Source: Blautia sp. (lineage in GTDB: Bacteria; Bacillota; Clostridia; Lachnospirales; Lachnospiraceae). Taken from it: a stretch of DNA of 64,000 nt. A program made the position numbers and the translations under genes. The DNA lies in contig JALEJS010000005.1 in assembly GCA_022769545.1 (NCBI GenBank), forward strand, positions 1 through 64,000, written 5' to 3'. Below the pieces are notes generated by a model. It saw nothing but the letters and a program-made list of their open reading frames with translations. It ran no database searches and had not been told where the DNA came from. Below, one piece after another: positions 24,682-40,056 of the stretch; the stretch's first letter is position 1, and every line of letters begins with the position of its first letter.

Positions 24682-26244
24682 ATGAGTGGATTATATAACG
24701 TATCATCGTCACCACATGTTCGTGGCGCTGATTCTACGCAGAGAATCATGTTCGATGTGGCAGTCGCCCTGATTCCGGCAGCAGGCTTCGGAGTTGTACA
24801 GTTTGGACTTTATTCCCTTCTGGTGCTGCTGGTTTCTGTCGCTTTTGCAATATTGACAGAATATGTTTTTCAGAAGCTTGCAAAGCAGCCGGTGACGGTT
24901 TCTGACGGAAGTGCTCTTGTGACAGGACTTTTGCTTGGAATGAACCTTCCGCCTTCTGTTCCGATCTGGATTCCGGCACTGGGCAGTATTTTTGCGATTC
25001 TGGTAGTGAAACAGTTCTTCGGAGGAATCGGACAGAACTTCATGAACCCGGCACTGGGTGCGAGATGTTTCCTTCTGATCTCCTTTACCGGAATTATGAG
25101 TGATTATGTCCTGGACGGTGTGTCCACGGCAACACCGCTGGCACTGATGAAAAACGGAGAGACACCGGAACTGCTGTCCACATTCCTGGGGACACATGCA
25201 GGATGTATCGGTGAAGTTTCCGCACTTGCCATTCTGATCGGTGCGGCTTATCTTCTGATCCGCAAAGTGATCACATGGGAAATTCCGGTGTGCTATATTG
25301 TAAGCTTTGTGATTTTTGAGATTCTGTTTGGCGGGCACGGATTTGATCCGGTATATCTTCTGACACAGGTTTGCTCCGGCGGTCTGCTTCTGGGTGCATT
25401 CTTTATGGCGACCGATTATGCGACCAGTCCGATTACCAAAAACGGGAAGTATCTGTTCGGAATCCTTCTTGGTGTGCTGACCGGAATCCTTCGTATTTTC
25501 GGTGCGTCGGCAGAGGGTGTTTCCTACGCGATCATTATTTCCAACCTGCTGGTTCCGCTGATCGAGCGTATCACCATGCCGGTGGCATACGGATTCAAGC
25601 ATGGTTCTCTGGAAGGAAAACAGAAAGTATCTCTTCGTACATATAAAGCAGCCTTAACACTGTGTGCGATCACTCTGGTGGCAGGTCTGGCGCTGGGTGC
25701 CGCTTATCAGGCGACGAAAGAGCCCATCGCACTGGCAGAACTGGCAGCACAGGCAGAAGCATATCGTGCGGTTGCCCCGGGCTCTGAGGAGTTTGAGCCG
25801 TCCGCAGAACTGCAGGAAGCGGCAGCTGGTATCACAGCAGAGGATGGAACCGTGGCAGAGGGACAGTTTGGCGGAATCCGCTTTGAGGATGTGTTAAATG
25901 CTCTGGATGCGTCCGGAAACAAAGTGGGATATGTGGTCAATGTAACCTCCAAGGACGGTTTCGGCGGTGAGATGACACTCAGCCTTGGTGTGGATCTGGA
26001 AGGTGTTGTGACCGGTCTGGAATTCCTTACCATCAATGAGACTGCCGGTCTTGGTATGAACGCAAAAGAAGAGTCCTTCAGAAACCAGTATCTTGGCACT
26101 GCAGTGGATTCCTTCAGCCTTGTGAAAGAGGCTCCGTCCGCAGACAATGAGATTCAGGCAATCAGCGGTGCGACCATCACATCCACGGCAGTAACCAATG
26201 CGGTGAATGCGGCACTGTATCTTGTCAGCAGCGTACAGGGATAG
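24682..26244 (+). CDS. rnfD: Rnf subunit D fused to subunit G
   Basis: A 520-aa single ORF with GGGAGG upstream. Residues 1 to about 315 are RnfD: about ten membrane helices and the covalent-FMN motif in DGVSTATPLA (Thr151). Residues about 320-520 are RnfG: one membrane helix (ALTLCAITLVAGLALGAAY) and an extracellular FMN-binding domain with AISGATITS (Thr498, the ApbE target). In most Rnf operons D and G are separate genes; no stop codon, frameshift or second start is visible here, so the fusion appears real. The ApbE gene in the same cluster supplies the flavin transferase. Confidence 0.92.
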   Translation: MSGLYNVSSSPHVRGADSTQRIMFDVAVALIPAAGFGVVQFGLYSLLVLLVSVAFAILTEYVFQKLAKQPVTVSDGSALVTGLLLGMNLPPSVPIWIPALGSIFAILVVKQFFGGIGQNFMNPALGARCFLLISFTGIMSDYVLDGVSTATPLALMKNGETPELLSTFLGTHAGCIGEVSALAILIGAAYLLIRKVITWEIPVCYIVSFVIFEILFGGHGFDPVYLLTQVCSGGLLLGAFFMATDYATSPITKNGKYLFGILLGVLTGILRIFGASAEGVSYAIIISNLLVPLIERITMPVAYGFKHGSLEGKQKVSLRTYKAALTLCAITLVAGLALGAAYQATKEPIALAELAAQAEAYRAVAPGSEEFEPSAELQEAAAGITAEDGTVAEGQFGGIRFEDVLNALDASGNKVGYVVNVTSKDGFGGEMTLSLGVDLEGVVTGLEFLTINETAGLGMNAKEESFRNQYLGTAVDSFSLVKEAPSADNEIQAISGATITSTAVTNAVNAALYLVSSVQG

Positions 26245-26256
26245 GAGGGATGGAAA

Positions 26257-26934
26257 ATGAATGAATATAAAGATCGAATTTTAAATGGTATCATAAAAGA
26301 AAATCCTACCTTTATCCTGATTCTTGGTATGTGTCCCACACTTGCCGTTACCACATCGGCGATGAACGGTGTCGGAATGGGATTGTCAACCACAGCAGTA
26401 CTGATCTTTTCCAATCTGCTGATTTCTCTTCTGAGAAATATTATTCCGGATAAGGTAAGAATTCCGGCGTACATTGTAGTCATTGCTTCACTGGTAACTG
26501 TAGTGGAGCTGGTTCTGAAGGCATATATTCCGGCGCTTTATTCCGCGCTTGGCCTGTACATCCCGCTGATCGTTGTAAACTGCATCATCCTGGGGCGTGC
26601 AGAGGCATATGCTTCCAAATCCACACCGGTGCTGGCTGTCTGTGACGGTATCGGAATGGGTCTTGGCTTTACCATCGCACTGACCCTGATCGGTATATTA
26701 AGAGAGCTGATCGGTGCAGGCTCCTTCTTCGGAATGAACATTATGCCTTCCGCATATCAGCCGGTGGCAATCTTTGTCAAGGCACCCGGAGCATTTATTG
26801 TTCTGGGAGGCATCATCGCCGTGATGAATGGTCTGAAGATCAAGAACAACAGCAGCAAGAAGGTGGAAGGCTGTTCCGGTGACTGCTGCAGCTGTGGTTC
26901 TTCTGACTGCTCGGACGCAAAAAAGAAAAAATAA
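26257..26934 (+). CDS. rnfE: Rnf complex subunit E
   Basis: A 225-aa membrane protein with about six helices and the RnfE/NqrD segments NPTFILILGMCPTLAVT and YIPLIVVNCIILGRAEAYASK; pairs with RnfA in the membrane core. The C-terminus is unusual: about 25 residues rich in Cys and Lys (EGCSGDCCSCGSSDCSDA then KKKK), which could bind a metal. Confidence 0.92.
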   Translation: MNEYKDRILNGIIKENPTFILILGMCPTLAVTTSAMNGVGMGLSTTAVLIFSNLLISLLRNIIPDKVRIPAYIVVIASLVTVVELVLKAYIPALYSALGLYIPLIVVNCIILGRAEAYASKSTPVLAVCDGIGMGLGFTIALTLIGILRELIGAGSFFGMNIMPSAYQPVAIFVKAPGAFIVLGGIIAVMNGLKIKNNSSKKVEGCSGDCCSCGSSDCSDAKKKK

Positions 26935-26946
26935 GGAGGGGTTATC

Positions 26947-27522
26947 ATGTCTGAAATGGTTTTGATATTTGTGGGTGCAGCACTGGTGAATAACGTTGTA
27001 CTCAGTCAGTTTTACGGTTTGTGCCCGTTCCTTGGTGTGTCCAAGCAGATTAAAACAGCAGCAAGTATGGGCGTTGCCATCATCTTCGTAATTACCATCG
27101 CTTCGGCGGTCTGCAGTGTGATCTATACGTATCTGCTGACACCGCTGGATCTGCAGTTCCTGCAGACGATCGTGTTTATTCTGGTAATTGCGGGACTGGT
27201 TCAGTTTGTGGAAATGTTCCTTAAGAAAAACAGCCCTGCACTGTTCCAGGCGCTGGGTGTATATCTTCCCCTGATCACCACCAACTGTGCGGTTCTTGGC
27301 GTTGCCCTGACAAACGTACAGAAGGAATATTCTTTTGTTCCGAGTGTGGTGAATGGTCTTGGCACATCCGTCGGCTTCACCATTTCCATCGTAATTCTGG
27401 CGGGAATTCGTGAACGTATGGAAAACAACAATATCATTGCACCGTTAAAGGGAATGCCCATCGTTCTGTTTGCAGCGGCACTGATGGCAATCGCATTTAA
27501 CGGATTTGCCGGTCTGATTTAA
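26947..27522 (+). CDS. rnfA: Rnf complex subunit A
   Basis: A 191-aa membrane protein of six helices, homologous to RnfE. Shows VNNVVLSQFYGLCPFLGVSK and YLPLITTNCAVLGVAL, the two inverted half-repeats with the cysteines that hold the shared intramembrane iron-sulfur centre in Rnf/Nqr. 12-base gaps on both sides. Confidence 0.95.
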   Translation: MSEMVLIFVGAALVNNVVLSQFYGLCPFLGVSKQIKTAASMGVAIIFVITIASAVCSVIYTYLLTPLDLQFLQTIVFILVIAGLVQFVEMFLKKNSPALFQALGVYLPLITTNCAVLGVALTNVQKEYSFVPSVVNGLGTSVGFTISIVILAGIRERMENNNIIAPLKGMPIVLFAAALMAIAFNGFAGLI

Positions 27523-27533
27523 GGAGGGAGATT

Positions 27534-28328
27534 ATGGTAACATCAATTCTGATAACGGCCCTTGTTGTGGGCGCGGTTGGACTGATCATAGGTTTTCTCC
27601 TGGTTACAGCCGGAGAAAAATTCAAGGTTCAGGTAGATGAGAGAGAAGCTGCAGTCCGGGCGGAGCTTCCCGGAAACAACTGCGGCGGCTGCGGCTATCC
27701 GGGTTGTGACGGTCTTGCGGCAGCAATCGTGAAAGGCGATGCTCCCACAAATGCATGTCCGGTAGGCGGAGCAGTGGTAGGAGCAAAGATCAGTGCCATC
27801 ATGGGTGTGGCATCTGAGGATCTGGGAAAACGTGTGGCATTTGTCCGCTGTTCCGGTGACTGCAATTCAGCAGTGTCTGACTGTAAGTACATCGGTATTC
27901 AGGACTGTCGTGCGGCAGCAGTCGTTCCAGGCAAAGGTGCAAAACGCTGTATCAACGGCTGCCGGGGCTACGGCTCCTGTATCACGGTTTGTAAATTCGA
28001 TGCGATTCACGTGGAGAACGGTGTTGCAGTGGTGAATCCTCTGAACTGTGTGGGATGCGGAAAATGTGTGCAGGCCTGCCCGAACGGACTGATCACCTTG
28101 ATTCCGGAACATACGGCATACATGGTTGCCTGCAGCTCTCAGGAGAAAGGAAAAGCGGTGAAGGAATCCTGTTCGGCAGGATGTATCGGCTGTACCTTAT
28201 GTACGAAGCAGTGTGAATACGGTGCCATTTCCATGAATGGAAATGTATCGGTGATCGATCCTGACAAGTGTCAGGCATGTGGAAAATGTGCGGAGAAATG
28301 TCCGGTTAAGGTCATCCGCAAGCGATAG
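27534..28328 (+). CDS. rnfB: Rnf complex subunit B (ferredoxin-like)
   Basis: A 264-aa protein with one N-terminal membrane helix, then the CGGCGYPGC four-cysteine Fe-S domain and several ferredoxin-type clusters (CINGCRGYGSC, CVGCGKCVQACP, CIGCTLCTKQC, CQACGKCAEKCP). Entry point for electrons from reduced ferredoxin. Last gene of the rnf operon proper. Confidence 0.95.
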   Translation: MVTSILITALVVGAVGLIIGFLLVTAGEKFKVQVDEREAAVRAELPGNNCGGCGYPGCDGLAAAIVKGDAPTNACPVGGAVVGAKISAIMGVASEDLGKRVAFVRCSGDCNSAVSDCKYIGIQDCRAAAVVPGKGAKRCINGCRGYGSCITVCKFDAIHVENGVAVVNPLNCVGCGKCVQACPNGLITLIPEHTAYMVACSSQEKGKAVKESCSAGCIGCTLCTKQCEYGAISMNGNVSVIDPDKCQACGKCAEKCPVKVIRKR

Positions 28329-28337
28329 GAGACTGGG

Positions 28338-28367
28338 ACAGGGGAAAACAGCAGGGTTTTCCCCTGT
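28338..28367 (+). promoter_or_regulatory. perfect 11-bp hairpin between rnfB and apbE
   Basis: ACAGGGGAAAA (28338-28348) and TTTTCCCCTGT (28357-28367) pair exactly around an 8-base loop. No T run follows, so it is unlikely to be an efficient terminator; it may be an RNA-processing or stability element that sets apbE expression, and it leaves little room for a ribosome site before ATG 28376/28382. Confidence 0.55.
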
Positions 28368-28375
28368 TGTCGTAA

Positions 28376-29365
28376 ATGCAGATGAAAAAAACAAAAGTAG
28401 TATCCGTGCTGGCGGGGATTCTGATTCTCTGTCTGCTGTCAGGGCTGCGGAACGGAAAAAAAGAATATTCCAGACAGACGCTCTATTTTGACACGGTGAT
28501 TTCTGTGAGCTTTTATGCCGGAAGAAACGGCGGGGAACTGATGGATCACTGCATGGAAATGTGTGAGGAATTTGAGCGCATTTTCAGCAGAACAGATGAG
28601 AACAGTGAACTGTATGCAGTCAATCACAGAAGCACAAATCGTGTGAAGGTTTCGGATGAGATCCGGGAGCTGACAGAAAAAGGTCTGGAATATTATGCGC
28701 TGTCCGGGGGAAAATTTGACATTACCATTGCTCCTCTTTCGGATCTGTGGGATTTTAAGAGTGAGGATGCCGCAGTGCCTGCAGAAGCTAAGATCCGGGA
28801 GGCGCAAAAAAAGGTGGGTGCCGACCGTGTCCATATCGACGGCGAGGAGCTTGTCTTTGACAGGGACGATACCATGATCGATCTTGGGGCACTGGTCAAA
28901 GGATATGCGGCAGATTGTATGAAGGAATATCTTACCGGGGAAGGTGTCACTTCCGGCCTGATCAATCTGGGCGGAAATGTTCTGACCATCGGCAGCAAGC
29001 CGGGCGGGAAAAAGTGGAATATCGGGATTCAGAAGCCATTTGGAACGCATGACCAGACTGCAGACGTGGTCGCTGTGGAGGATCAGACGGTGGTTTCTTC
29101 CGGGATTTATGAGAGATATTTTGAGCAGGACGGAAAGATATACCATCACATTCTGGATCCGGATACGGGATATCCGGTGGACAATGATATAGAAGGAATA
29201 TCCGTGATCTGCGATTCCTCTCTGGAAGGGGATGCCATGAGTACCACCTGCCTCCTTCTGGGGGTATCCGGTGCGGAAGCATTTCTGAGGGAGAGAGAGG
29301 GTGTGGAAGGGATTCTGATCACCAGAGATTCGGAAATCATTCATACAGGTGAATCAAATGAATAA
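28376..29365 (+). CDS. apbE: FAD:protein FMN transferase (ApbE family)
   Basis: A 329-aa protein (ATG 28376 or 28382). The N-terminal segment VVSVLAGILILCLLSGL is a signal/anchor; no clear lipobox. Shows the ApbE core: FDTVISVSFYAG, SELYAVNH, GKFDITIAPLSDLWDF, MIDLGALVKGYAADCM, GLINLGGNVLTIGSKP, and HHILDPDTGYPVDNDI (Mg-binding). It transfers FMN from FAD to Thr in RnfD and RnfG outside the membrane, consistent with its place after rnfB. Confidence 0.92.
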   Translation: MQMKKTKVVSVLAGILILCLLSGLRNGKKEYSRQTLYFDTVISVSFYAGRNGGELMDHCMEMCEEFERIFSRTDENSELYAVNHRSTNRVKVSDEIRELTEKGLEYYALSGGKFDITIAPLSDLWDFKSEDAAVPAEAKIREAQKKVGADRVHIDGEELVFDRDDTMIDLGALVKGYAADCMKEYLTGEGVTSGLINLGGNVLTIGSKPGGKKWNIGIQKPFGTHDQTADVVAVEDQTVVSSGIYERYFEQDGKIYHHILDPDTGYPVDNDIEGISVICDSSLEGDAMSTTCLLLGVSGAEAFLREREGVEGILITRDSEIIHTGESNE

Positions 29366-29735
29366 AAAAACACGCAACACAGCAGTGCTGGTGATACTGC
29401 TGCTTTCGATTTCTGCGGCAGGTCTGCTGGTACGTTATATACAGGGTCAAAAGACAGGCGCATATGCAGTGCTCACGAAAGCAGGAGAAGTTCTGTATCG
29501 ACTGCCGCTGTCCGGAGAATGTCAGCTGACGGTGGGAGAAAAGACCGGGGGATACAATCGTGTGGTGCTTCAGGACGGAGAAATCTCCGTCACAGATGCA
29601 GACTGTCCCAATCATGACTGCATCCGCCAGGGGGCGATCAAAGATCCCGGCCAGGTAATCGCCTGTCTTCCCCATGACCTGATCATCACCATAGAATCCG
29701 ATGATGAGAACACTGTGGATTCCTCTGCATGGTAA
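29358..29735 (+). CDS. NusG domain II-containing protein
   Basis: A 125-aa protein from ATG 29358, overlapping the end of apbE. One N-terminal membrane helix (NTAVLVILLLSISAAGLLVRYI) and an extracellular beta-rich NusG-II-like domain with DADCPNHDCIRQGAIKDPGQVIACLPHDLIIT. Two cysteines flank His-Asp, suggesting a disulfide or metal site. Members often neighbour ApbE and Gx transporter genes; the function is unknown but probably tied to redox/flavin or isoprenoid membrane biology. Confidence 0.85.
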   Translation: MNKKTRNTAVLVILLLSISAAGLLVRYIQGQKTGAYAVLTKAGEVLYRLPLSGECQLTVGEKTGGYNRVVLQDGEISVTDADCPNHDCIRQGAIKDPGQVIACLPHDLIITIESDDENTVDSSAW

Positions 29736-29826
29736 ATCCAGAGGAAATGGTGGAAAGATAGAATGATTTTCTGGCTGGTGGAAACGTGCAGATTTCAACA
29801 TGCAGTCAAACGACTATGCCTGGAAA

Positions 29827-29868
29827 AACAGATCAGGGACGGCGTGTGCACCGTCCCTGATCTGTTTT
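29827..29868 (+). terminator. perfect 16-bp hairpin between the rnf/apbE genes and the next locus
   Basis: AACAGATCAGGGACGG (29827-29842) and CCGTCCCTGATCTGTT (29851-29866) pair fully around 8 bases. TTTT follows on the plus strand and AAAAA precedes the left arm, so it may terminate in both directions. It lies only 34 bases before ATG 29901 and I see no promoter in between, so it could also be part of that gene's leader. Confidence 0.7.
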
Positions 29869-29900
29869 GTCGAAAAGAACTCTTTTGAAAAGGTAAAAAA

Positions 29901-30863
29901 ATGAATAAGAGAGTACTGAGTATTTTAGTAGCAGCAAGTGTAACAGCGGTAAGCGGACTTTGTGCGACTGCAGTTTCTGCAGAAGAAACAGAGGAAAAAA
30001 CAATCAAAATCGGTTTTTCTTCGAAAGATAATTCCGATATCTTCGTGGCAGCGATCGCAGACGCAGCACAGAAAAAAGCAGAAGAAATGGGTGTAGAGCT
30101 GCTGATGAATGATGCGAACGGTGATGTAAACAAACAGATCAACGACTGCGAAACCATGATCGTAGCCGGTGTTGATGCACTGATCGTTATTCCGCAGAGT
30201 ATTGAAGGAAGTGCTCCGGTTGTACAGATGGCAAATGATGCCGGTGTTCCGATTATCATTGATAACGGTGATATTGCAGATAAAAACTACACAGCATTTG
30301 TAGGATGTACCGATCAGGAATCTGGTGAATTGCTTGGTCAGTGGTTTATGGATAACATGGAAGAGGGATCCAAAGTTTGTATCATGGAAGGACCGATGGG
30401 TGGTTCCGGACAGGTTGGAAGAATGAATGGATTTCTTGAAGTGGGAATGATCGATTATTTTGATGTACTTTCTACGCAGACCGCAAACTGGAAACGTGAA
30501 GAAGCAGTTGCTCTTGCGGAAGACTGGCTGGTAACTTATGGAGAAGATCTGAAAGCAATCATCTGTGAGAACGATGATGAAGCATTAGGTGCACTTTCCG
30601 TTTGTAAAGCAACTGGAAGAACAGACATCTTAATTGGTGGTGTAGACGGTCTGGATGAAGCAGTAGAAGCAGTGAAAAACGGTGAAATGGGTGTGACGAT
30701 CCTTCAGGACTCCAAAGGACAGGGAGAAAAAGGTGTCGAAGTTGCAGTTGCGGCAGCAAGAGGAGAAGAAGTTCCTTATGATACCAGAATCCCGTTTATC
30801 CCGATCACAAAAGACAATGTAGATGCATATCTTGAAGGCGGTGTAGACGCTATTACAAAATAA
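29901..30863 (+). CDS. CUT2-type sugar-binding protein (first of the Tm-1/PEP-hydrolase locus)
   Basis: A 320-aa exported protein with a 28-residue Sec signal peptide ending AVSA-E; no lipobox cysteine at the cleavage site. Type-1 binding fold: IKIGFSSKDNSDIFVAAIAD, IVIPQSIEGSAPVV, AGVPIIIDNGDI, EGPMGGSGQVGRMNGFLE, IICENDDEALGAL, GGVDGLDEAVEAV. The ribosome site (GAAAAGG) is modest. It lies upstream of the LacI regulator and ABC genes; a terminator follows it, so it is a separate transcript unit. Confidence 0.88.
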   Translation: MNKRVLSILVAASVTAVSGLCATAVSAEETEEKTIKIGFSSKDNSDIFVAAIADAAQKKAEEMGVELLMNDANGDVNKQINDCETMIVAGVDALIVIPQSIEGSAPVVQMANDAGVPIIIDNGDIADKNYTAFVGCTDQESGELLGQWFMDNMEEGSKVCIMEGPMGGSGQVGRMNGFLEVGMIDYFDVLSTQTANWKREEAVALAEDWLVTYGEDLKAIICENDDEALGALSVCKATGRTDILIGGVDGLDEAVEAVKNGEMGVTILQDSKGQGEKGVEVAVAAARGEEVPYDTRIPFIPITKDNVDAYLEGGVDAITK

Positions 30864-30940
30864 GAATCAACAAATGGGAATGGCGAAGAACAGCTGATTT
30901 GTCAGCTATATAAGCGTGACCTCCTGGTTTTGGGTAAAAA

Positions 30941-30979
30941 AGAGAAGATTTCCGGATTTGCGGATCTCTTCTTTTTTTT
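30941..30979 (+). terminator. terminator after the first binding-protein gene
   Basis: AGAGAAGAT (30941-30949) pairs with ATCTCTTCT (30964-30972), followed by a long T run. The rest of the 250-base gap holds the promoter of the LacI gene. Confidence 0.75.
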
Positions 30980-31046
30980 ATTTCATAGGAAATTCCTCCG
31001 TATGGAAAACGATGTAACATTTTCGGGGACACTTCAATCTTTTTTA

Positions 31047-31076
31047 TTGCATTACTTGCAGTTGTTATGCTAATAT
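31047..31076 (+). promoter_or_regulatory. promoter of the LacI-family regulator gene
   Basis: TTGCAT (31047-31052) and TAATAT (31071-31076) are separated by 18 bases with TGC before the -10 box. Confidence 0.55.
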
Positions 31077-31115
31077 TAGCTATGAAAAGCAAAGGTTAAG
31101 GAGAGAGATTGCGCT

Positions 31116-32117
31116 ATGTCGAACGTTAAAAGAGGCGGTATTACATTGGATGATATTGCAAGAGAGACAGGGCTTTCGAAATTTTCTGTCTCAAGAGCGG
31201 TGTCCGGAAAAAACGGAGTCAGTGAGGAGACCAGAAAGCGGGTTCTCGAGGCCTGCGATCGGCTTGGATATGAACGTAAGGCATCGAAAAATTCCTCAAA
31301 GAAATATGTGCTGTTGATCCTTCCGAGGCATGATTCACAGGACAACAGCTTTTGGATGAAGGTGATTGTGGGGATTGAGAATGGTTTGACTCGCCAGGGA
31401 TATTCCCTTCATTTGAAGGTGGTATCCGATAAAGAGGATGAAATGACGAGTGTGGAGGCGCAGGAGGCAGCCGGTATCCTGTTTGTGGGATACAAAAGTC
31501 TGCCGTATGTGGATAAGCTTGCCGTATACAATAAGCCCATGCTGATCCTTACATACCCGCCATATAATCTGTTCCCGTATGATACCATGCATTTTGCGGA
31601 TCGGGAGGGGGCATGTGCACTGTGCGAATATCTGATCAACAATGGGCATAAAAGAATCGGGTTTTACGGCTCTTTGGAACGCCCTTCTATGAAATACCGG
31701 TTTAACGGTATTCTTGAAACGGTAAACCGTATGGGTGCAGAGCTGACGCATGTATGGGATATGGAGAGCTATCTGAATTCGTTTGAAATGATTGAAGAAT
31801 TAAAACGAATGAAGGAAGACAACACATTGCCGTCGGCGATTGTGTGCAGCACGGACAAATATGCGCAGTCGCTGCTGATTATGCTGAACAGTATTGGGCT
31901 GACGGTTCCGCAGGAGGTTTCGGTTACGGGATTTAACAGTGATTTTGATGAAGCGCAGTCGATTCCGCTGACGAGTATCGGGTACAGCAGACGGAAATAT
32001 GGCATTCAGGTGGCAGATAATCTGCTGGCGAAAATCAATAATCCGGGACGCGCGGTGGTTTCGATGTCGGTCATTCCGAAGCTGGTGATCGGTGCAACAA
32101 CAAAAAGCATTCTTTGA
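31116..32117 (+). CDS. LacI-family transcriptional regulator
   Basis: A 333-aa protein. N-terminal helix-turn-helix and hinge: ITLDDIARETGLSKFSVSRAVSGKNGVSEETRKRV, about residues 8-55. The C-terminal periplasmic-binding-like effector domain runs from about residue 65 (VLLILPRHDSQDN) to SMSVIPKLVIGATT. A probable repressor of the flanking transport/catabolic genes, with the transported compound or a derivative as effector (inference). A terminator follows, so the ABC operon has its own promoter. Confidence 0.92.
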   Translation: MSNVKRGGITLDDIARETGLSKFSVSRAVSGKNGVSEETRKRVLEACDRLGYERKASKNSSKKYVLLILPRHDSQDNSFWMKVIVGIENGLTRQGYSLHLKVVSDKEDEMTSVEAQEAAGILFVGYKSLPYVDKLAVYNKPMLILTYPPYNLFPYDTMHFADREGACALCEYLINNGHKRIGFYGSLERPSMKYRFNGILETVNRMGAELTHVWDMESYLNSFEMIEELKRMKEDNTLPSAIVCSTDKYAQSLLIMLNSIGLTVPQEVSVTGFNSDFDEAQSIPLTSIGYSRRKYGIQVADNLLAKINNPGRAVVSMSVIPKLVIGATTKSIL

Positions 32118-32138
32118 AAAGTGACAGAAATGATAATC

Positions 32139-32188
32139 AAAAGGGCTGTGGATATCCGGCAAAATCCGGATATTCATAAGCCCTTTTT
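32139..32188 (+). terminator. terminator of the LacI gene
   Basis: AAAGGGCTGTGGATATCCGG pairs with CCGGATATTCATAAGCCCTTT (one short bulge), with a T run. Confidence 0.85.
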
Positions 32189-32250
32189 CAGTCTTTGTCT
32201 GTTTGGGTTGTTGCCTGCCTAACAAACATAAAATTAGGTTTAATATTTAG

Positions 32251-32280
32251 TTGACTACAAACCAAATATAATGCTATTAT
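32251..32280 (+). promoter_or_regulatory. promoter of the ABC/Tm-1/PEP-hydrolase operon
   Basis: TTGACT (32251-32256) and TATTAT (32275-32280) are separated by 18 bases. The surrounding AT-rich stretch (ATTAGG...TAATATTTAG) is weakly dyadic and could hold the LacI operator, but no clean CG-centred palindrome is seen. Confidence 0.65.
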
Positions 32281-32311
32281 ATTAGGCATAAGGAGAGACG
32301 GAGGTAAAGAA

Positions 32312-33832
32312 ATGAGTAGAGAACCCATCCTGCAAGTTTCAAATATAAAAAAATCCTTTAACGGTGTTGAGGTTCTTCATAATGTCAGTCTTTCGATATA
32401 TCCGGGAGAAGTAACAGCGCTTGTCGGCGAAAACGGAGCCGGAAAATCAACGCTGATGAAGATTCTTATGGGGGAATACAGGGCTGATGGCGGAGAGATG
32501 ATATTCGAGGGAAAGAAAGTATTCTTTGAAAACCCGCATCAGGCACTGGCAAAAGGTCTTTCTATGGTGTTTCAGGAGATGTCTCCGTTTCCGCATATGA
32601 CGGTTGCGCAGAATATGTTTGTCGGGCGTGAACCGCATAAGGGAATTCTGATCGACCGCAAAGCGCAGAGAACGAAAGCAAAAGAAATACTCCGTGATCT
32701 GAATATCCATCTGGATGTCAATGAAAAAGTGGGAAATCTCACGGTGTCAGAAATGCAGCTTCTTGAGATTGCCAAAGCGGTATCCAACAACTCGAAAATC
32801 GTTATCATGGATGAGCCGTCGTCCGCACTCTCGGAAAATGAAGTAAATTTGTTGTTCAAAACGATACATGACCTTACGCAGCGAGGTGTGGCGATCATTT
32901 ATATCAGCCACAAGCTGGATGAGCTCAGTCAGATCGCAGATCATGTATGTGTATTACGAGACGGAAGTATCATCAGCAGCCGGCCGATCGCGGAAGTGAA
33001 ACGAAATGTCATAATCAGTGAAATGGTCGGGCGGAGTATTGATGATGTATACCCTCATATCGAGAAGGAAATCGGAGAGGTTGTGCTGGAAGTGGAAAAT
33101 CTGGAACTTCGGAATGTCATCCACAACGTATCGTTTTCGTTGAGAAGAGGGGAGATTTTAGGGATTGCAGGAATTGTCGGAGCAGGACGTACAGAGCTTG
33201 TATCCACGCTTTTTGGAATTACTCCTCCGACAGGAGGAATGATTCGCCTGAATGGGAAAGAAATCAAAATAAAAAATCCGCGCAATGCGATCGCGAATCA
33301 TTTTGCATTAATTCCGGAAGACCGTGCAAGAGATGGATTGAACCTGATCAGCTCCATACAGTCAAATATGACCATGACCGTTCTGGATAAAACAAACCGG
33401 GCAAAAATTCTGTCAAATAACAAAGAAGCTGCAAAACTCACAGATAAAATGATTCAGGCACTGAAGATCAAATGCAACAGCAAAAATCAGAGAGCCGGTT
33501 CATTATCCGGTGGAAATCAGCAGAAGATCGTAGTCGGAAAATGGCTTTTGACAGATCCGAACATCATTTTTCTTGACGAGCCCACGCGGGGAATCGATGT
33601 CGGGGCAAAATATGAAATTTATCAGTTGATCCTGAATATGGCCAGAGAAGGCAAATCCATTATCATGATTTCTTCCGAAATGCCGGAGCTTCTGGGAATA
33701 TGTGACCGAATCATTGTTATGAGAGACGGACATATCTCCGGAGAGCTGAGTAAAGAAGAGGCAAATCAGGAAGCAATTATGCAGATCATTGTGAACGATA
33801 GTAATCAGGAGGCTAATAAGAATGGAAAATAG
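32312..33832 (+). CDS. CUT2 sugar ABC transporter ATPase
   Basis: A 506-aa protein of two fused ATPase domains. Domain 1: Walker A GENGAGKST, MVFQEMSPFPHMTVAQNMFVGRE, signature-like NLTVSEMQLLEIAKA, Walker B VIMDEPSSAL. Domain 2: altered Walker A GIVGAGRTE, IPEDRARDGL, signature LSGGNQQKI. Overlaps the permease gene by 11 bases. Drives import of the substrate captured by the two binding proteins in the locus. Confidence 0.92.
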   Translation: MSREPILQVSNIKKSFNGVEVLHNVSLSIYPGEVTALVGENGAGKSTLMKILMGEYRADGGEMIFEGKKVFFENPHQALAKGLSMVFQEMSPFPHMTVAQNMFVGREPHKGILIDRKAQRTKAKEILRDLNIHLDVNEKVGNLTVSEMQLLEIAKAVSNNSKIVIMDEPSSALSENEVNLLFKTIHDLTQRGVAIIYISHKLDELSQIADHVCVLRDGSIISSRPIAEVKRNVIISEMVGRSIDDVYPHIEKEIGEVVLEVENLELRNVIHNVSFSLRRGEILGIAGIVGAGRTELVSTLFGITPPTGGMIRLNGKEIKIKNPRNAIANHFALIPEDRARDGLNLISSIQSNMTMTVLDKTNRAKILSNNKEAAKLTDKMIQALKIKCNSKNQRAGSLSGGNQQKIVVGKWLLTDPNIIFLDEPTRGIDVGAKYEIYQLILNMAREGKSIIMISSEMPELLGICDRIIVMRDGHISGELSKEEANQEAIMQIIVNDSNQEANKNGK

Positions 33833-34823
33833 TAAAAAAGTGGACATCAAAAGGATCATATCAAAAGGCGGCATCGTTTTTGTGCTCCTGGGCCTGATCG
33901 TATTGTGGTCATGTCTGTCCAAATCATTCCTGACCGTCAATAATCTGCTTCTGATTATGAAGCAGGTCAGTCTGTACAGTATTCTGACAATTGGGATGAC
34001 GGTTGTATTGATTACGGGAGGAATTGATCTTTCGGTTGGGTCGATCGTGGCAATGGGTGCAGTGATTGCCGCGCATTATTGTTCCGGTGATTACATTGAT
34101 ATGCCGCTGATCGTACCGATCCTGCTTTCGATCGGTGTCGGTCTGCTTTGCGGTCTGATCAATGGTATCGGGGTTGCGTTCTGCAGAGTACCTGCATTTA
34201 TTATGACAATGTGCATGATGCTTGCCGCCAGAGGTGCAGCCTATGTTTATACAAATGCAAAAGCAATTTTCAATCTGAATGAAAAGTTTACAGAGATTGC
34301 GAACGGTTTTCTGGGAAGGACATTTGACGAGAGTGGTGTGGTTGTTAATTATGGGATCCCCTATATGGTGTTTTATTTCCTGATTGCCGTTGTTGCAGGT
34401 ATATTTATCCTGCATGCGACAACCTACGGACAGAGGCTTTATGCAATCGGAGGAAACAAAAACGCGGCGCGATATTCCGGAATCGACACGAAATTACTGG
34501 AGTGTTCTGCATATGTGATCAGCGGCATCTGTTCCGGAATCGTGGGATTCCTTATGGCCAGCCGGATCTCTTCCGGCAATGCAAACTCGGCAGACGGCTA
34601 TGAAATGACAGTCATATCTGCATCTGTCATTGGAGGGGTATCACTTTCGGGTGGCGTCGGAACGATGTATGGCGCTATGATCGGCGTATTGATCGTTGGT
34701 GTTATCAGTAACGGTATGGATATTTTAGGTATCAACACGTACTATCAGAAGATCTTAAATGCTGTCATTATCTTTGTGGCGGTATTCATTGATGTACGTG
34801 CAAATGATAAAAAAGAAAAATAA
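33822..34823 (+). CDS. CUT2 sugar ABC transporter permease
   Basis: A 333-aa membrane protein, about nine helices, ATG 33822 within the ATPase 3' end with AGGAGG upstream. Family segments: VLITGGIDLSVGSIVAM, RVPAFIMTMCMMLAARGAA, VIGGVSLSGGVGTMYGAMIG. Forms the transport channel with the preceding ATPase. Confidence 0.92.
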   Translation: MENSKKVDIKRIISKGGIVFVLLGLIVLWSCLSKSFLTVNNLLLIMKQVSLYSILTIGMTVVLITGGIDLSVGSIVAMGAVIAAHYCSGDYIDMPLIVPILLSIGVGLLCGLINGIGVAFCRVPAFIMTMCMMLAARGAAYVYTNAKAIFNLNEKFTEIANGFLGRTFDESGVVVNYGIPYMVFYFLIAVVAGIFILHATTYGQRLYAIGGNKNAARYSGIDTKLLECSAYVISGICSGIVGFLMASRISSGNANSADGYEMTVISASVIGGVSLSGGVGTMYGAMIGVLIVGVISNGMDILGINTYYQKILNAVIIFVAVFIDVRANDKKEK

Positions 34824-34842
34824 AAAAAGGAGAGAAAGAAAC

Positions 34843-35793
34843 ATGAATAAGAAAATTTTATCTTCACTTATGGTAGGAACCATGATCGCGGCTATGGCGG
34901 CAACCTCTGTATCTGCCGAAGAAGGATACGGAAAACTTCTTTTCCTGCAGACACACAACAACAACTCATTCATGTCCTATATGGGCGAGACATTCGTTGA
35001 GCTTGCGGAAGAAGCCGGATTTGATGTGACGCATCTGACTGCTGACTCCGATGAGGGAACACAGCTTTCTCAGATTGAGCAGGCAGTTGCTTCCGGAGAA
35101 TATGTAGGTGTCATTTGTGACTGTACAGGTGAAGGCGTAACACAGGGATTCAAAGAAGCAAAAGAAGCAGGAATGTTTGTAGAAACGCTTCACGAAGGTG
35201 TGGAAGACAATACATATGTAGACGTTGTAGTTGCCTGCTCACTGGCAGAGACAGGTCATACGGCAATCAATCTGGAAGTGGAAGAGCTTGGGGAAGAATT
35301 CAACCTTGCAATTGTGAATGGTTCGGAAGGACACGGTGCGACAGTAGCAATCCGTAAAGGTTATGATCAGGCTCTTGAAGAGCATCCTGGAATCAACGTT
35401 GTATTTGACGGTGCCGGAAACTGGAATGCAGAAGATGCTATGGCATTGACAGAATCCTGGTTCAGCTCAGGTACACAGATCGACGGTATTGTTTGTATGA
35501 ATGATGGTATGGCTACAGGTGTTCGTCAGGTTATGAAAGACAATGGCGTGCTTGGTCAGATTCCGATCTACTCGAATGACTGTGAAATCGACACTCTGGC
35601 GGCAATTGAAGCCGGCGAACAGAGGGGCTCCTTTGACATGAACGCGGAAGCTCAGTGTAAGGCAGCAATTGATTCCATGATCAGCCTGATCAAGGGTGAA
35701 GAAATCACAGAAAAAGAAATTTATGTAGATCCTCTGCTGGTTACCATTGATAACCTTGAAGAGTACAGATCTACACATAGCGGAAATTACTAA
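34843..35793 (+). CDS. CUT2-type sugar-binding protein (second in locus)
   Basis: A 316-aa exported protein; ATG 34843 follows AAAGGAGAG. The signal peptide of about 25 residues ends SVSA-E with no lipobox. Type-1 binding fold: KLLFLQTHNNNSFMSYMGET, VGVICDCTGEGVTQGFKEA, IVNGSEGHGATVAIRKGYD, GIVCMNDGMATGVRQVM, GSFDMNAEAQCKAAIDSM. It differs clearly from the locus's first binding protein at 29901, so the one ATPase/permease may serve two ligands. Followed 33 bases later by the Tm-1-like gene. Confidence 0.88.
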   Translation: MNKKILSSLMVGTMIAAMAATSVSAEEGYGKLLFLQTHNNNSFMSYMGETFVELAEEAGFDVTHLTADSDEGTQLSQIEQAVASGEYVGVICDCTGEGVTQGFKEAKEAGMFVETLHEGVEDNTYVDVVVACSLAETGHTAINLEVEELGEEFNLAIVNGSEGHGATVAIRKGYDQALEEHPGINVVFDGAGNWNAEDAMALTESWFSSGTQIDGIVCMNDGMATGVRQVMKDNGVLGQIPIYSNDCEIDTLAAIEAGEQRGSFDMNAEAQCKAAIDSMISLIKGEEITEKEIYVDPLLVTIDNLEEYRSTHSGNY

Positions 35794-35826
35794 AAACGAA
35801 AATAATATAAGAAAGAACAGAATAAT

Positions 35827-37044
35827 ATGAAAACAATTCTTCTGCTTGGGACACTGGATTCCAAGGGGAAAGAGTTTGATTATCTGTATAGTGAGTTGAT
35901 AAGACGCCATGTGAATGTCAAAACGATGAATGTCGGTATTTTTGAACCGACAAACTCATTTCCCATTGACATTAACGCAGATGTTGTTGCAAGAACTGCA
36001 GGTGAGAGTATCGATGAGCTGCGTGAAAAAAATGACCGTGGTCATGCGATGAAGATCATGAGTCAGGGTGCCAGAACTCTTGCGATGAAATTGCAGCAGG
36101 AAAACGAAATTGACGGAATAATAAGTATGGGTGGCGGTGGAGGTACTTCCATCGCTACCACTGCTATGCAGGGACTTCCTCTTGGCTTTCCAAAGATTTG
36201 TATTACCACTCTTGCGTCAGGTGATACACATGAATATGTAGGAACAAAAGATATTGTTCTTTATCCATCGATTGTGGATATTTCAGGAATTAACCGATTT
36301 TCAAGAATGATTATTTCCCGTGCGGCAGGTGCGATCTGTGGAATGACGCTGGATGATCCCCTCCCTGATGAAAATGACAAACCGATCATTTGTATTTCCA
36401 TGTTTGGAAATTCCACGGAAGGTGTGGAGAAGTGTGCGAAGCTTCTGGAAGAAAAAGGATACGCGACTATGATCTTCCATGCAACAGGCGGCGGCGGAAG
36501 GTCGATGGAGGAATTTATCAAAAGCGGTGGCTGCGTAGCCTGCCTTGATATTACGACAACGGAGTGGGCGGACGAGTACTGCGGCGGAATTCTTTCAGCG
36601 GGACCAAAGCGCCTTGACGGGCCATCCATTGCGGGTATCCCGCATGTGATCTGTCCGGGATGTCTTGACATGGTCAATTTTGGCACATGGCAGTCTGTGC
36701 CGGAGAAATATAAAACAGAAGACAGGGTTTTCTATGAATGGAACCCGATGGTTACACTCATGAGAACAACCAGAGACGAGAATAAAGAACTTGGGAAAAT
36801 ACTGGCTGAAAAGGCCAATAAGTCTAACGCGCCGGTGGCATTTATTCTTCCGGAAAAGGGTCTTTCTATCCTTGACGGCGAGAATCAGGTTTTCTGTGAC
36901 TGGGATGCAGATGAAGCACTTTTTAAAGCAATCGAAGAAAACGTACATGAAGGTATTGCAGTTGAGAGAGTGGCAGCAAATGTAAACGATCAGGCTTTTG
37001 CGGATGCAGCAGTCAGCCTTCTCTTGAAAATCATCAATCATTAA
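35827..37044 (+). CDS. Tm-1-like ATP-binding protein (UPF0261)
   Basis: A 405-aa protein starting with a Rossmann-like TILLLGTLDSKGKEFDYL, then MGGGGGTSIATTAMQGLPLG, ICITTLASGDTHEYVGTKDIV, SMFGNSTEGVEKCAKLLEEKGY, HATGGGGRSMEEFIKSGG and GAGPKRLDG-type SAGPKRLDGPS. This is the UPF0261/Tm-1 N-terminal family; the plant Tm-1 protein has this domain fused to a TIM-barrel like the product of the next gene. Enzymatic activity in bacteria is not defined. It is co-transcribed with a sugar-type transporter, suggesting a metabolic role in processing the imported compound. Confidence 0.9.
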   Translation: MKTILLLGTLDSKGKEFDYLYSELIRRHVNVKTMNVGIFEPTNSFPIDINADVVARTAGESIDELREKNDRGHAMKIMSQGARTLAMKLQQENEIDGIISMGGGGGTSIATTAMQGLPLGFPKICITTLASGDTHEYVGTKDIVLYPSIVDISGINRFSRMIISRAAGAICGMTLDDPLPDENDKPIICISMFGNSTEGVEKCAKLLEEKGYATMIFHATGGGGRSMEEFIKSGGCVACLDITTTEWADEYCGGILSAGPKRLDGPSIAGIPHVICPGCLDMVNFGTWQSVPEKYKTEDRVFYEWNPMVTLMRTTRDENKELGKILAEKANKSNAPVAFILPEKGLSILDGENQVFCDWDADEALFKAIEENVHEGIAVERVAANVNDQAFADAAVSLLLKIINH

Positions 37045-37088
37045 AAAATTCCCCGTTTCTATGAGGGAAGAATTATAAGGAGATAGCC

Positions 37089-37919
37089 ATGAGAATTGAA
37101 AGACAGGAAATACTCAGAAGATTAAGAAAAAATATTGAAGAAGGAAAGCCGATCATCGGTACCGGCGGCGGCACCGGTATCAGTGCAAAGTTTGAAGAAG
37201 CAGGCGGATCCGATCTGATCATCGTCTACAACTCGGGACGTTACAGAATGGCCGGACGTGGATCGTCTGCAGGTCTTCTCGCGTATGGTGACGCAAACCA
37301 GATCGTTATGGATATGGCTGGCGAAATCCTTCCGGTAGTAAAAAACACACCGGTATTGGCAGGCGTAAATGGAACAGACCCGTTCAAAGACATGAGATAC
37401 TTTATCAAACAGCTCAAAGAGATCGGATATTCCGGCGTACAGAACTTCCCGACCGTAGGTCTGTTTGAAGGAAGAATGAGACAGACATTCGAAGAGACCG
37501 GTATGAGCTACAACCTTGAAGTTGACATGGTTCGTATCGCAAACGAACTGGATATGTTTACGTCTCCCTATGCATTTAATCCGGAAGAAGCCATCAAGAT
37601 GACAAAAGCCGGAGCAGATGTGGTGGTAGCACATGTAGGATGTACGATCGGCGGTTCGATCGGAGCTACCGATTCTGTCATGGAACTCGATGCGGCAGCG
37701 AAAATCGTGCAGGAGATCCATGACGCAGCAGTCGCAGAAAGAAGCGATGTGATCGTTCTTTGCCACGGCGGTCCGATTTCCAGCCCGGAAGATGCACAGT
37801 ACATTCTTCGTCATACAAAAGGTGTGCATGGATTCTATGGGGCATCCAGTGCAGAAAGAATGCCGGTAGAGATTGCAATCACAGAACACATTAAGAAGTT
37901 CAAGTCAATCACATTTTAA
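37089..37919 (+). CDS. phosphoenolpyruvate hydrolase family protein (TIM barrel)
   Basis: A 276-aa protein with AAGGAGATAG upstream. PEP_hydrolase-type (PF09370) beta/alpha barrel: [121 protein letters not shown]. Homologous to the C-terminal domain of plant Tm-1. The glycine-rich N-terminal loop resembles a phosphate-binding site. Together with the preceding gene it likely forms a two-subunit enzyme; the reaction is unknown. Confidence 0.9.
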
Positions 37920-37934
37920 AAGTTCCTATGCAAA

Positions 37935-37984
37935 GGGGCGCTGCAAAACAGTTGAGTAATCATTTGTGGAGCAGCGCTCCTTTT
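37935..37984 (+). terminator. terminator of the Tm-1/PEP-hydrolase operon
   Basis: GGGGCGCTGC (37935-37944) pairs with GCAGCGCTCC (37971-37980), followed by TTTT. Confidence 0.7.
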
Positions 37985-38096
37985 GTGCGCGGTTTTTAAG
38001 GGGAAGACCGCTTTTTCATTTTGGATAAAAGCGGTAGTTGATGATTTGGCGGACAGATGATAAAATGAGGAGGATCAGGAAATGGCAGGCAGATAA

Positions 38097-38651
38097 ATGA
38101 GAAGAATGGGAAATGTAAAACGAAATGTAAAACGAAATAAAAAAGACAATATCGCTTCCAGAGTGGCAGTGTTTGGCATGCTCACGGCGCTTGCAATGAT
38201 TCTGAGTTATGTGGAGACTCTGATTCCCATCTCTCTCGGAATCCCGGGTGTGAAGCCGGGCCTGGCCAATCTGGCAGTATTCACGGCACTTTATTTGACG
38301 ACGCCGGCAAATGCCTTTGGGATATCCGTGGTCAGGATCCTTCTGGTTGCATTCACCTTCGGAAACCTTTATTCCATGCTGTACAGCCTTGCAGGAGGTA
38401 TTTTAAGCTTTCTTTTGATGCTTCTGTGCAAAAAGAAAGACTGGCTGAGCAAAACCGGAGTGAGTATTGTGGGAGGGGTGTCCCACAATCTGGGGCAGCT
38501 GGCGGTTGCTGCGGCTGTCGTGGAAAACGCAGCGGTATTTTCCTATTTTCCGATGCTGCTTCTGGCAGGAACCGCGGCAGGGACTCTGATCGGACTTCTG
38601 GGATCGCTGATTCTTGCAAGGCTGCCCAAAAATCTTTTTTTCATATCCTGA
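38097..38651 (+). CDS. Gx transporter family protein (heptaprenyl diphosphate synthase component I-like)
   Basis: A 184-aa membrane protein with five to six helices: AVFGMLTALAMILSYVETLIP, GVKPGLANLAVFTALYL, AFGISVVRILLVAFTFGNLYSMLYSLAGG. Basic N-terminus with a repeated KRNVKRN. Such genes usually sit beside ApbE and NusG-II genes; here they are 8.4 kb apart. The clear AGGAGG site (about 38069) serves an upstream ATG at 38082 that encodes only M-A-G-R before TAA, directly followed by this ATG (TAAATG), so translation may be coupled through a tetrapeptide leader. Confidence 0.8.
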   Translation: MRRMGNVKRNVKRNKKDNIASRVAVFGMLTALAMILSYVETLIPISLGIPGVKPGLANLAVFTALYLTTPANAFGISVVRILLVAFTFGNLYSMLYSLAGGILSFLLMLLCKKKDWLSKTGVSIVGGVSHNLGQLAVAAAVVENAAVFSYFPMLLLAGTAAGTLIGLLGSLILARLPKNLFFIS

Positions 38652-38692
38652 CGGACAGGATTTACGAAGAAACACATAGGAGGAATCGTATA

Positions 38693-39931
38693 TTGAGTTT
38701 GGGAAAATCAAGAGTGGTGTGGATCGATCAGCTGAGAGGCTTTGCGTTTTTTTGTGTGCTTTTCAGCCATCTGAATACCTATTCACAGATCAAACAGGTC
38801 ATCGGATCGTTCCATATGCCGCTGTTTTTTATCATTTCCGGGCTGCTTCTGAACCCGGAACGCATATTACAGAAAAAGCTGGGGCCGCAGATTCTTCATA
38901 AAATGCAGGCACTGGGGATACCATACCTGTGGACCTGCTTTGCATTATTTCCCTTCTGGGTGATCACTTATAAGATCCTCGGGAATACAAAAGTCTCTCT
39001 GGGACATGTGGTCAAGGGGATTTTCGTCTCTCAGAATCTATGGTATACAGCGCCGGCAAATCCGGTCTGGTTCATCGGGGCACTGTTTTTTGCCACACTG
39101 TATGTTTATGTGATAATAAAAATAACCGGTACGCACAAAAGAGTCCGTTTTGTTCTGATGGCTGCACTGATGGCAGCAGGGTTTGCATGCAGAGATCTGG
39201 TCATGCCGTGGCATATCAATACCGCCATGGTTGGAGCTGGATATATCTACATCGGTTATCTGATCCGCACATATCTTCTGGACCGAACAGAAAAAATGGA
39301 AAAAAACCGTCAGATCCTGGTCCTGTCACTGCTGATTGCGGGCATGTTTTTTTCCTACACCAACACGCCGGCAATCATGGTGACGGGTGGATACGGAAGA
39401 GCATATCTTTTCCTTGGGTCTTCGGTACTCATCAGTCTGGCGCTGATCCTGATGTTTCAGAAAGCGAAAGAAGACCGGTTTATGGCATTTATGGGACAGA
39501 ATACACTGTTTATTCTGGGTGCCCATATCTCGATCATTCGTCTCATGGAAAAGCTTTTTCCGTATACCATGCAGGCGAATAACCGCTGTGTGCTTCTGTC
39601 CATTCTGATGTTTTTCCTGCTGGCAGGAATCAGTTTTGCCATAAATCGGTACTGGCCCTATGTAAACGGAAAATTCAGCACGTTTACTGGGACGGTCCGG
39701 GAGTATGTACTGCGTTATCTCATGATTGTGTGGTGCGCCATGATTCCGGTCTATATCGTTCTGAAAAAAATCGGAGTGCTTGCTGCCGGAACCGGAATTT
39801 TTGTGCAGGCGGTGATTCTCGGCGTGTGTGTGCTGCTGGCTTCCGCACTGTTTCTTCTGGTCACCAGCCGCTGGTGTCCGTGGATTTATCTCAGTCGGAG
39901 GATGCCTCCTGCTTCTGCAAATGGTGAGTAA
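38693..39931 (+). CDS. membrane acyltransferase (acyltransferase-3 family)
   Basis: A 412-aa protein; TTG 38693 has AGGAGGA (38678-38684) upstream and overlaps nothing, while the longer frame from 38426 runs inside the previous gene. Begins IDQLRGFAFFCVLFSHLN and FHMPLFFIISGLLLN, the His-containing first helices of acyltransferase-3 proteins, followed by about nine more helices. Transfers acyl groups to a cell-surface carbohydrate or lipid; the acceptor is unknown. Loosely linked to the Gx transporter gene upstream (41-base gap). Confidence 0.85.
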   Translation: MSLGKSRVVWIDQLRGFAFFCVLFSHLNTYSQIKQVIGSFHMPLFFIISGLLLNPERILQKKLGPQILHKMQALGIPYLWTCFALFPFWVITYKILGNTKVSLGHVVKGIFVSQNLWYTAPANPVWFIGALFFATLYVYVIIKITGTHKRVRFVLMAALMAAGFACRDLVMPWHINTAMVGAGYIYIGYLIRTYLLDRTEKMEKNRQILVLSLLIAGMFFSYTNTPAIMVTGGYGRAYLFLGSSVLISLALILMFQKAKEDRFMAFMGQNTLFILGAHISIIRLMEKLFPYTMQANNRCVLLSILMFFLLAGISFAINRYWPYVNGKFSTFTGTVREYVLRYLMIVWCAMIPVYIVLKKIGVLAAGTGIFVQAVILGVCVLLASALFLLVTSRWCPWIYLSRRMPPASANGE

Positions 39932-39964
39932 TGACAAAAGAAATGACAGGACTACAGAGAAAGC

Positions 39965-39981
39965 AGCACATGTGCTATAGT
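39965..39981 (+). promoter_or_regulatory. palindrome abutting a -10-like box upstream of the L,D-transpeptidase gene
   Basis: AGCACATGTGCT (39965-39976) is a perfect 12-bp palindrome that shares its last base with TATAGT (39976-39981). No good -35 is seen. Confidence 0.35.
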
Positions 39982-40056
39982 AATTCCAGAAGCATGCAAA
40001 AATTGTAAAAAAATGCAGATGTGCAATTGTACAGAAAGCAAGGTACAGGGGAGAAA

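Follow-up and report, generated by a model that had tools for sequence, protein, structure and literature searches.

A CUT2 importer operon of a Blautia sp. joined to a UPF0261–PF09370 protein pair, with a candidate catalytic histidine in PF09370

In plants the protein families UPF0261 (Tm-1-like) and PF09370 (phosphoenolpyruvate (PEP)-hydrolase-like) meet in one fused chain: Tm-1 and the Tm-1-like proteins carry these two domains in the same order as the bacterial gene pair (PMC5028733), the N-domain is homologous over its length, and Tm-1 has been studied as an inhibitor of tobamovirus replication. The present work concerns a 64,000-nucleotide stretch of a Blautia sp. genome that is 91% complete (hereafter the window), read between positions 29901 and 37919, in which the two families occur, unlike in plants, as two separate open reading frames (ORFs), without the single-chain fusion and joined to an importer. 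Mll9387 of Mesorhizobium, whose structure is solved (2p10), is a stand-alone PF09370 protein like that of the window; its gene is presumably the PF09370 copy that adjoins a Tm-1-like gene on plasmid pMLa of M. japonicum (L079; L numbers denote the loci compared here). The neighbours in L079 are a cupin, a Gfo/Idh/MocA protein and a PF09370–sigma-54 activator, whereas the window harbours a CUT2 importer instead. CUT2 sugar operons with a LacI regulator, such as that on contig C22 of the same genome (RbsD, DUF4432, FGGY kinase, Gfo/Idh, class II aldolase), share with the window the LacI regulator, a double ATPase, a single permease and a Peripla_BP_4 binding protein. However, the window operon contains no recognised sugar kinase, isomerase, dehydrogenase or aldolase and has UPF0261 and PF09370 instead. 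In the pathways of DUF1537 acid-sugar kinases, an ATP-using protein and a second enzyme likewise stand beside importers.

The operon extends from 32312 to 37919 and comprises genes for a CUT2 ATPase, a permease, one binding protein, UPF0261 and PF09370, with a LacI gene upstream:

31116..32117, + strand: LacI-family regulator, probable regulator of the operon (Pfam LacI and Peripla_BP_3); orthologue with 61.7% identity in the corresponding position of L008
32312..33832, + strand: CUT2-type ABC ATPase (profile matches); identity 60–64% in L005–L008 and 47% in L126
33822..34823, + strand: CUT2-type permease, BPD_transp_2 (profile matches); identity 73–76% in L005–L008
34843..35793, + strand: operon binding protein, Peripla_BP_4 (Pfam); identity 70–81% in L005–L008; Sec-type signal without lipobox cysteine
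35827..37044, + strand: UPF0261 (Tm-1-like) protein, N and C domains (PF06792 and PF23189)
37089..37919, + strand: PF09370 (PEP-hydrolase-like) protein (Pfam), solved relative 2p10; His226 and Tyr47 are proposed catalytic residues

All these genes give strong family matches in a Pfam profile search and appear in the ORF list at these coordinates and on this strand, so that every gene call of the initial annotation is confirmed. The UPF0261 protein scores 198.2 bits against PF06792 and 264.8 bits against PF23189 (curated cut-off 27), and the PF09370 protein 417 bits (cut-off 33.8) over model positions 1–267 of 267; the genome contains one match to each of the two families. The double ATPase domain, the BPD_transp_2 permease and the Peripla_BP_4 binding protein together mark the importer as CUT2. 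No NCBIfam cut-off is reached by the ATPase, the permease, the regulator or either of the binding proteins of the region. The ORF of the operon binding protein is listed from 34759, but its start is most likely 34843, which is preceded by an AGGAGAG ribosome site and opens a signal peptide.

The order ATPase–permease–binding protein–UPF0261–PF09370 is identical in the window and in four Lachnospiraceae loci, L005–L008, and this sharing exceeds chance; L005 begins inside the ATPase gene, at a contig end, and L008 is the locus of [Clostridium] citroniae. In L006 and L007 the operon opens with a glycerate kinase gene (PF02595), adjoining the gene of a divergent regulator that carries a sugar-diacid recognition domain. 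L126, which belongs to a different family of this class, has its CUT2 genes (binding protein, ATPase and permease) placed between those for PF09370 and UPF0261, and also contains genes for an MmgE/PrpD protein, a zinc dehydrogenase and, on the opposite strand, a PF09370–AraC protein.

UPF0261 and PF09370 form a genuine pair, as the initial annotation had proposed, and this pair is widespread and co-evolving. Across 72 loci surveyed, UPF0261 is present within the fetched stretch in 59 and lies directly upstream of PF09370 on the same strand in 41; in 14 it occupies the opposite strand. A separate survey of 18 stretches from the same class, drawn from 16 other genomes over the cut-off (one of them twice) and one further genome of the order survey, finds the pair adjacent in 16; of the remaining two, one (L131) is a contig of 5.5 kb. 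Few genomes of this class have PF09370: 17 of 391 are over the cut-off, the source genome included. The distance matrices of the two families correlate with r = 0.842 (77 loci with full copies; 0 of 999 permutations as high), a value that includes shared species history. Co-occurrence, co-evolution and plant fusion of the pair are already published in PMC5028733, which together with the loci read here places the two families in bacteria, haloarchaea, fungi and plants. In other papers, COG5441–COG5564 ranks third among fungal pairs (PMC8963296) and UPF0261 appears in gene lists (PMC2364660, PMC6867892). In Clostridium senegalense JC122 (L062:8604-9988) PF09370 is a single ORF but UPF0261 is divided between two.

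The new finding here is a residue pattern that separates stand-alone PF09370 proteins from fused copies. PF09370 occurs as the N-terminal domain of AraC- and sigma-54-type activators encoded near the pair (L070:7498-8679, L003:1138-2346, L079:8508-10337, L080:5773-7599, L084:4719-6494). Nine fusions to AraC DNA-binding domains were found, all nine confirmed by Pfam, and seven to sigma-54 activator domains, six of them confirmed by Pfam and the other, L115, placed by tree position and length. Since a PF09370-bearing regulator accompanies the pair in 11 of the 18 same-class stretches, the ligand of PF09370 is suggested to be the inducing signal. The 16 fused copies form one clade with support of 100/100, at a point where the program warns of long branches meeting; their branches are mostly longer, and some stand-alone branches are long too.

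When 103 stand-alone copies (identical sequences removed, near-duplicates kept) are compared with the 16 fused ones, 59 columns are at least 97% conserved in the former. In the fused copies, 29 of these columns are kept in at least 90%, among them Arg53, Asn70, Glu79, Glu144, Arg257 and Glu261, and 11 in fewer than half; several of the poorly kept columns represent mild changes, for instance Phe249 to Tyr. Arg53, Glu144, Arg257 and Glu261 are present in all copies of both kinds. Four residues, by contrast, are absent from every fused copy: Tyr47, Val93, His226 and Ala252. All 103 stand-alone copies have His226, the divergent ones of L129, L130, L084 and L165 among them; in the fused copies it is replaced by Tyr (12), Glu (3) or Gly (1). 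Tyr47 is found in 100 of 103 stand-alone copies, missing in L083, L129 and one copy of L130. The simplest reading makes His226 catalytic and lets the fused copies bind a similar ligand but not convert it: because the sensor-like copies lack His226 and all stand-alone copies retain it, PF09370 would be an enzyme that uses this residue.

The link between the pair and importers is real but variable. A search with 14 query proteins finds a transporter within the gene run of the pair in 21 of 72 loci, compared with 39 of 399 control genes taken from positions more than five genes away (91 loci). The 21 include seven related loci of Komagataeibacter that have an MFS gene, and two (L057 and L059) whose stretch lacks UPF0261. 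Importer genes stand in the fetched neighbourhood of 10 of 14 plasmid loci (L077, L078, L079, L084, L160–L165), hand-chosen among 60 listed of 239 records; the importer of L079 lies on the opposite strand at a distance of about 4 kb, L080 is arguable, and L081, L082 and L083 do not clearly have one. L083 contains no UPF0261 in its 18.7 kb. By annotation the nearby importers are ABC systems of the carbohydrate (CUT1-like), BMP, branched-chain amino acid and other types. Given this variety, it is improbable that the pair at large serves one sugar-like substrate. The earlier expectation that the pair would be conserved next to a dedicated importer of an unidentified sugar-like compound is thus upheld in part: the pair is conserved, importers exceed the control, and the argument from a dedicated importer is valid for this lineage, but a dedicated importer is not a general rule, nor is one sugar. 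Three loci encode UPF0261 as the C-terminal portion of an ABC ATPase, with BPD_transp_2 permeases alongside (L045:7777-9996, L067:7726-9996, L069:7792-9996).

A sequence search of the PDB matches the UPF0261 protein to the Tm-1 N-domain structures 3wrw, 3wrx, 3wry and 3wrv and to 9mpy, and the PF09370 protein to 2p10 (357.8 bits); it gives no more distant homologues at E < 0.01. Profile comparison of PF09370 by hhalign returns a probability of 2.3 for PanB (eight of nine sequences, one with internal stops being dropped) and 0.8 for PEP mutase (two sequences), and is powerless, as the PanB–PEP mutase control reaches only 3.0. For the operon binding protein the nearest solved proteins are CUT2 binding proteins 4rs3, 5hko and 4rsm, some of which were reportedly solved with polyols. 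The literature searched gives no accepted reaction for UPF0261 or PF09370, none being stated in the parts seen of PMC12733950, PMC12140429 and PMC5214455, in agreement with the initial annotation. Nor does it include a paper that describes PEP hydrolysis for the PF09370 family, and the database name PEP hydrolase finds no support there. Because a glycerate kinase and a sugar-diacid regulator occur in L006 and L007, and the Bradyrhizobium plasmid loci L084 and L165 encode pyruvate kinase two genes beyond the pair, the product is weakly placed near glycerate or PEP; glycerate as a certain product is not accepted, the kinase being in the operon in only two sister loci. The source genome has no PF02595 glycerate kinase and one MOFRL-type glycerate-kinase match.

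Taken together, the chances are about even that the locus is an inducible catabolic CUT2 operon in which UPF0261 and PF09370 act on the imported compound as a two-protein enzyme. The importer would bring in a sugar-, polyol- or acid-sugar-like compound; UPF0261 would activate it with ATP; PF09370 might then cleave or isomerise the activated compound by means of His226, probably with Tyr47, the two residues absent from its sensor-like relatives; and the product may enter central metabolism near glycerate, phosphoglycerate or PEP, the weakest step. Regulation of the operon is likewise inferred. A broader proposal is held tentatively, at somewhat less than even chance: the pair would be an undescribed ATP-dependent two-protein enzyme, with His226 catalytic, that is plugged behind many importer classes, and its PF09370 half would once have given rise, upon loss of catalytic residues, to a clade of sensors that detect the compound of the pathway. 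The operon provides a compact test case, in that a single importer with its one binding protein is combined with one regulator, two enzymes and a specific residue proposed as catalytic; to work out its reaction would assign a function to a family that includes a virus-resistance protein of a crop, tomato, and would test the name PEP hydrolase.

Several observations weigh against this reading. As the fused copies are one clade, His226 may have been lost just once, and only half of the conserved columns are kept in them. A transporter stands in the run of the pair in only 2 of the 18 same-class stretches. ATP binding by UPF0261 is an assumption that draws on the database name and on structure work on Tm-1. 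Glycerate kinases are common; the gene is part of the operon in only two of five sister loci (it is absent from the window and L008, and the upstream end of L005 is missing), and the genomes of L005–L008 contain one PF02595 match each, wherever located. Both pyruvate kinase loci belong to a single genus.

The strongest competitor, judged unlikely yet serious, holds that the pair carries out generic repair, detoxification or housekeeping on a common metabolite, its place beside this importer being one of many recruitments and the pathway of the importer possibly lying elsewhere. The changing importer classes, the 16 same-class stretches in which none of the transporter kinds sought stands in the run, the loci with the two genes on opposite strands and the fused version in plants (PMC5028733) all agree with it. 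It accounts less well for the five genes that stay joined in the Lachnospiraceae loci, for the UPF0261–ABC ATPase fusions, and for the frequency of PF09370-bearing regulators beside the pair, as in substrate-induced catabolism. That PF09370 is a small-molecule sensor or scaffold controlling UPF0261, which alone would do the chemistry, is distinctly improbable: the domain does occur in AraC and sigma-54 activators, and an older name of the family is TIM-barrel signal transduction, but the near-complete retention of His226 and Tyr47 in stand-alone copies and their loss from all fused ones speak against it, and the fused branches are mostly the longer ones, with the reservation made above.

A further alternative concerns the extent of the unit, and bears on these remaining features of the region:

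29901..30863, + strand: first binding protein, Peripla_BP_4 (Pfam), judged outside the operon
32139..32187, + strand: terminator-like hairpin in the gap between LacI gene and operon; 13-pair core at 32147-32178, -30.5 kcal/mol, z -7.2
32218..32280, + strand: probable promoter/operator region, CCTAA...TTAGG inverted repeat followed by TTGACT-18-TATTAT; block also in L008
37931..38011, + strand: terminator-like hairpins 3' of the PF09370 gene; 37925-38000 folds at -32.7 kcal/mol, z -4.8; pattern-scan sites 37968-37980 and 37989-38011

The initial annotation had drawn an 8-kb operon in which a single transporter is served by both binding proteins. Their common strand and a distance of less than 6 kb are in keeping with that idea, which is nevertheless most improbable and is rejected. 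The first binding protein stands apart from the operon, because its paralogue belongs to a complete operon elsewhere, hairpins flank its gene and L006–L008 have no counterpart (L005 is cut before that place). The paralogue, 71% identical, is the binding protein of the CUT2 sugar operon on contig C22, an ordinary sugar pathway. Relatives with 66–74% identity occur in four genomes of the same genus and follow an ATPase and a permease in three (L154–L156). In L155 the genes after it encode, by Pfam, RbsD/FucU, DUF4432, FGGY kinase, Gfo/Idh/MocA, xylose-isomerase-like and class II aldolase proteins, and C22 (L158) carries the equivalent of each, 76–99% identical and in unchanged order. Hairpin folding energies were each tested against 200 shuffles: one hairpin precedes the gene (29825-29880, z -7.7) and another, with a T run, follows it (30936-30980, -19.9 kcal/mol, z -5.3). 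The gene starts about 30 bases after a strong hairpin.

The separate operon defined here is probably controlled by LacI, whose gene is kept with it in L008; L006 and L007 have the sugar-diacid regulator instead, and L005 is cut at the contig end. A promoter match of 10/12 lies at 32251-32280, in a pattern scan whose yield is close to chance (15 promoter-like sites against 15.0 expected, 10 terminator-like sites against 7.7 expected) and which did not list the two hairpins around the first binding protein. RNA elements at Rfam gathering thresholds are absent from 26000-40000.

The distribution of the operon is patchy, and it was probably gained by horizontal transfer. PF09370 is found in 0 of 36 genomes of the same genus and in 1 of 24 others of the order, and among the matches listed from the genus the best to the operon binding protein reaches 30% identity along most of the protein (34% in short segments). 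Insertion of the region into an Rnf-associated cluster is most likely, because the flanking genes are close together in same-genus loci but 8.4 kb apart here: NusG-II-like and Hpre_diP_synt_I genes lie 15–106 bases apart, by alignment ends, in 5 of 11 such loci, and in the window, at 26947-38651, are split by the inserted region. A sixth locus, L133, has both genes with ApbE between them, and the other five show no NusG-II match in the 1.5-kb flank. The G+C content of the operon is 44–47% (window 47.5%), and at third positions 41–49% as against 51–54% in flanking genes, a mild difference. A megablast search of 32312-38000 against plasmids gave no match. By eye, the binding proteins of L005–L008 carry lipoprotein-type signal peptides, whereas that of the window operon lacks the lipobox cysteine, like five other binding proteins of the genus (L148, L151–L153, L158).

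Other neighbours of the pair vary between lineages. A small cupin (8), ABM (13, all Acetobacteraceae) or SRPBCC (3) protein is encoded directly beside it in 24 of 105 loci as against 5 of 455 controls, a rough comparison, as the queries were drawn from such neighbours and each locus offers several neighbour places. These different families take the same position, for example in L011, L016 and L080; the window has none of them. In L161 an annotated beta-L-arabinofuranosidase domain protein (L161:3740-5659) belongs to an importer operon that also holds the pair, and in L129 a RuBisCO-like protein (L129:10524-11801) is encoded two genes away from PF09370, on the far side of an amidohydrolase gene.

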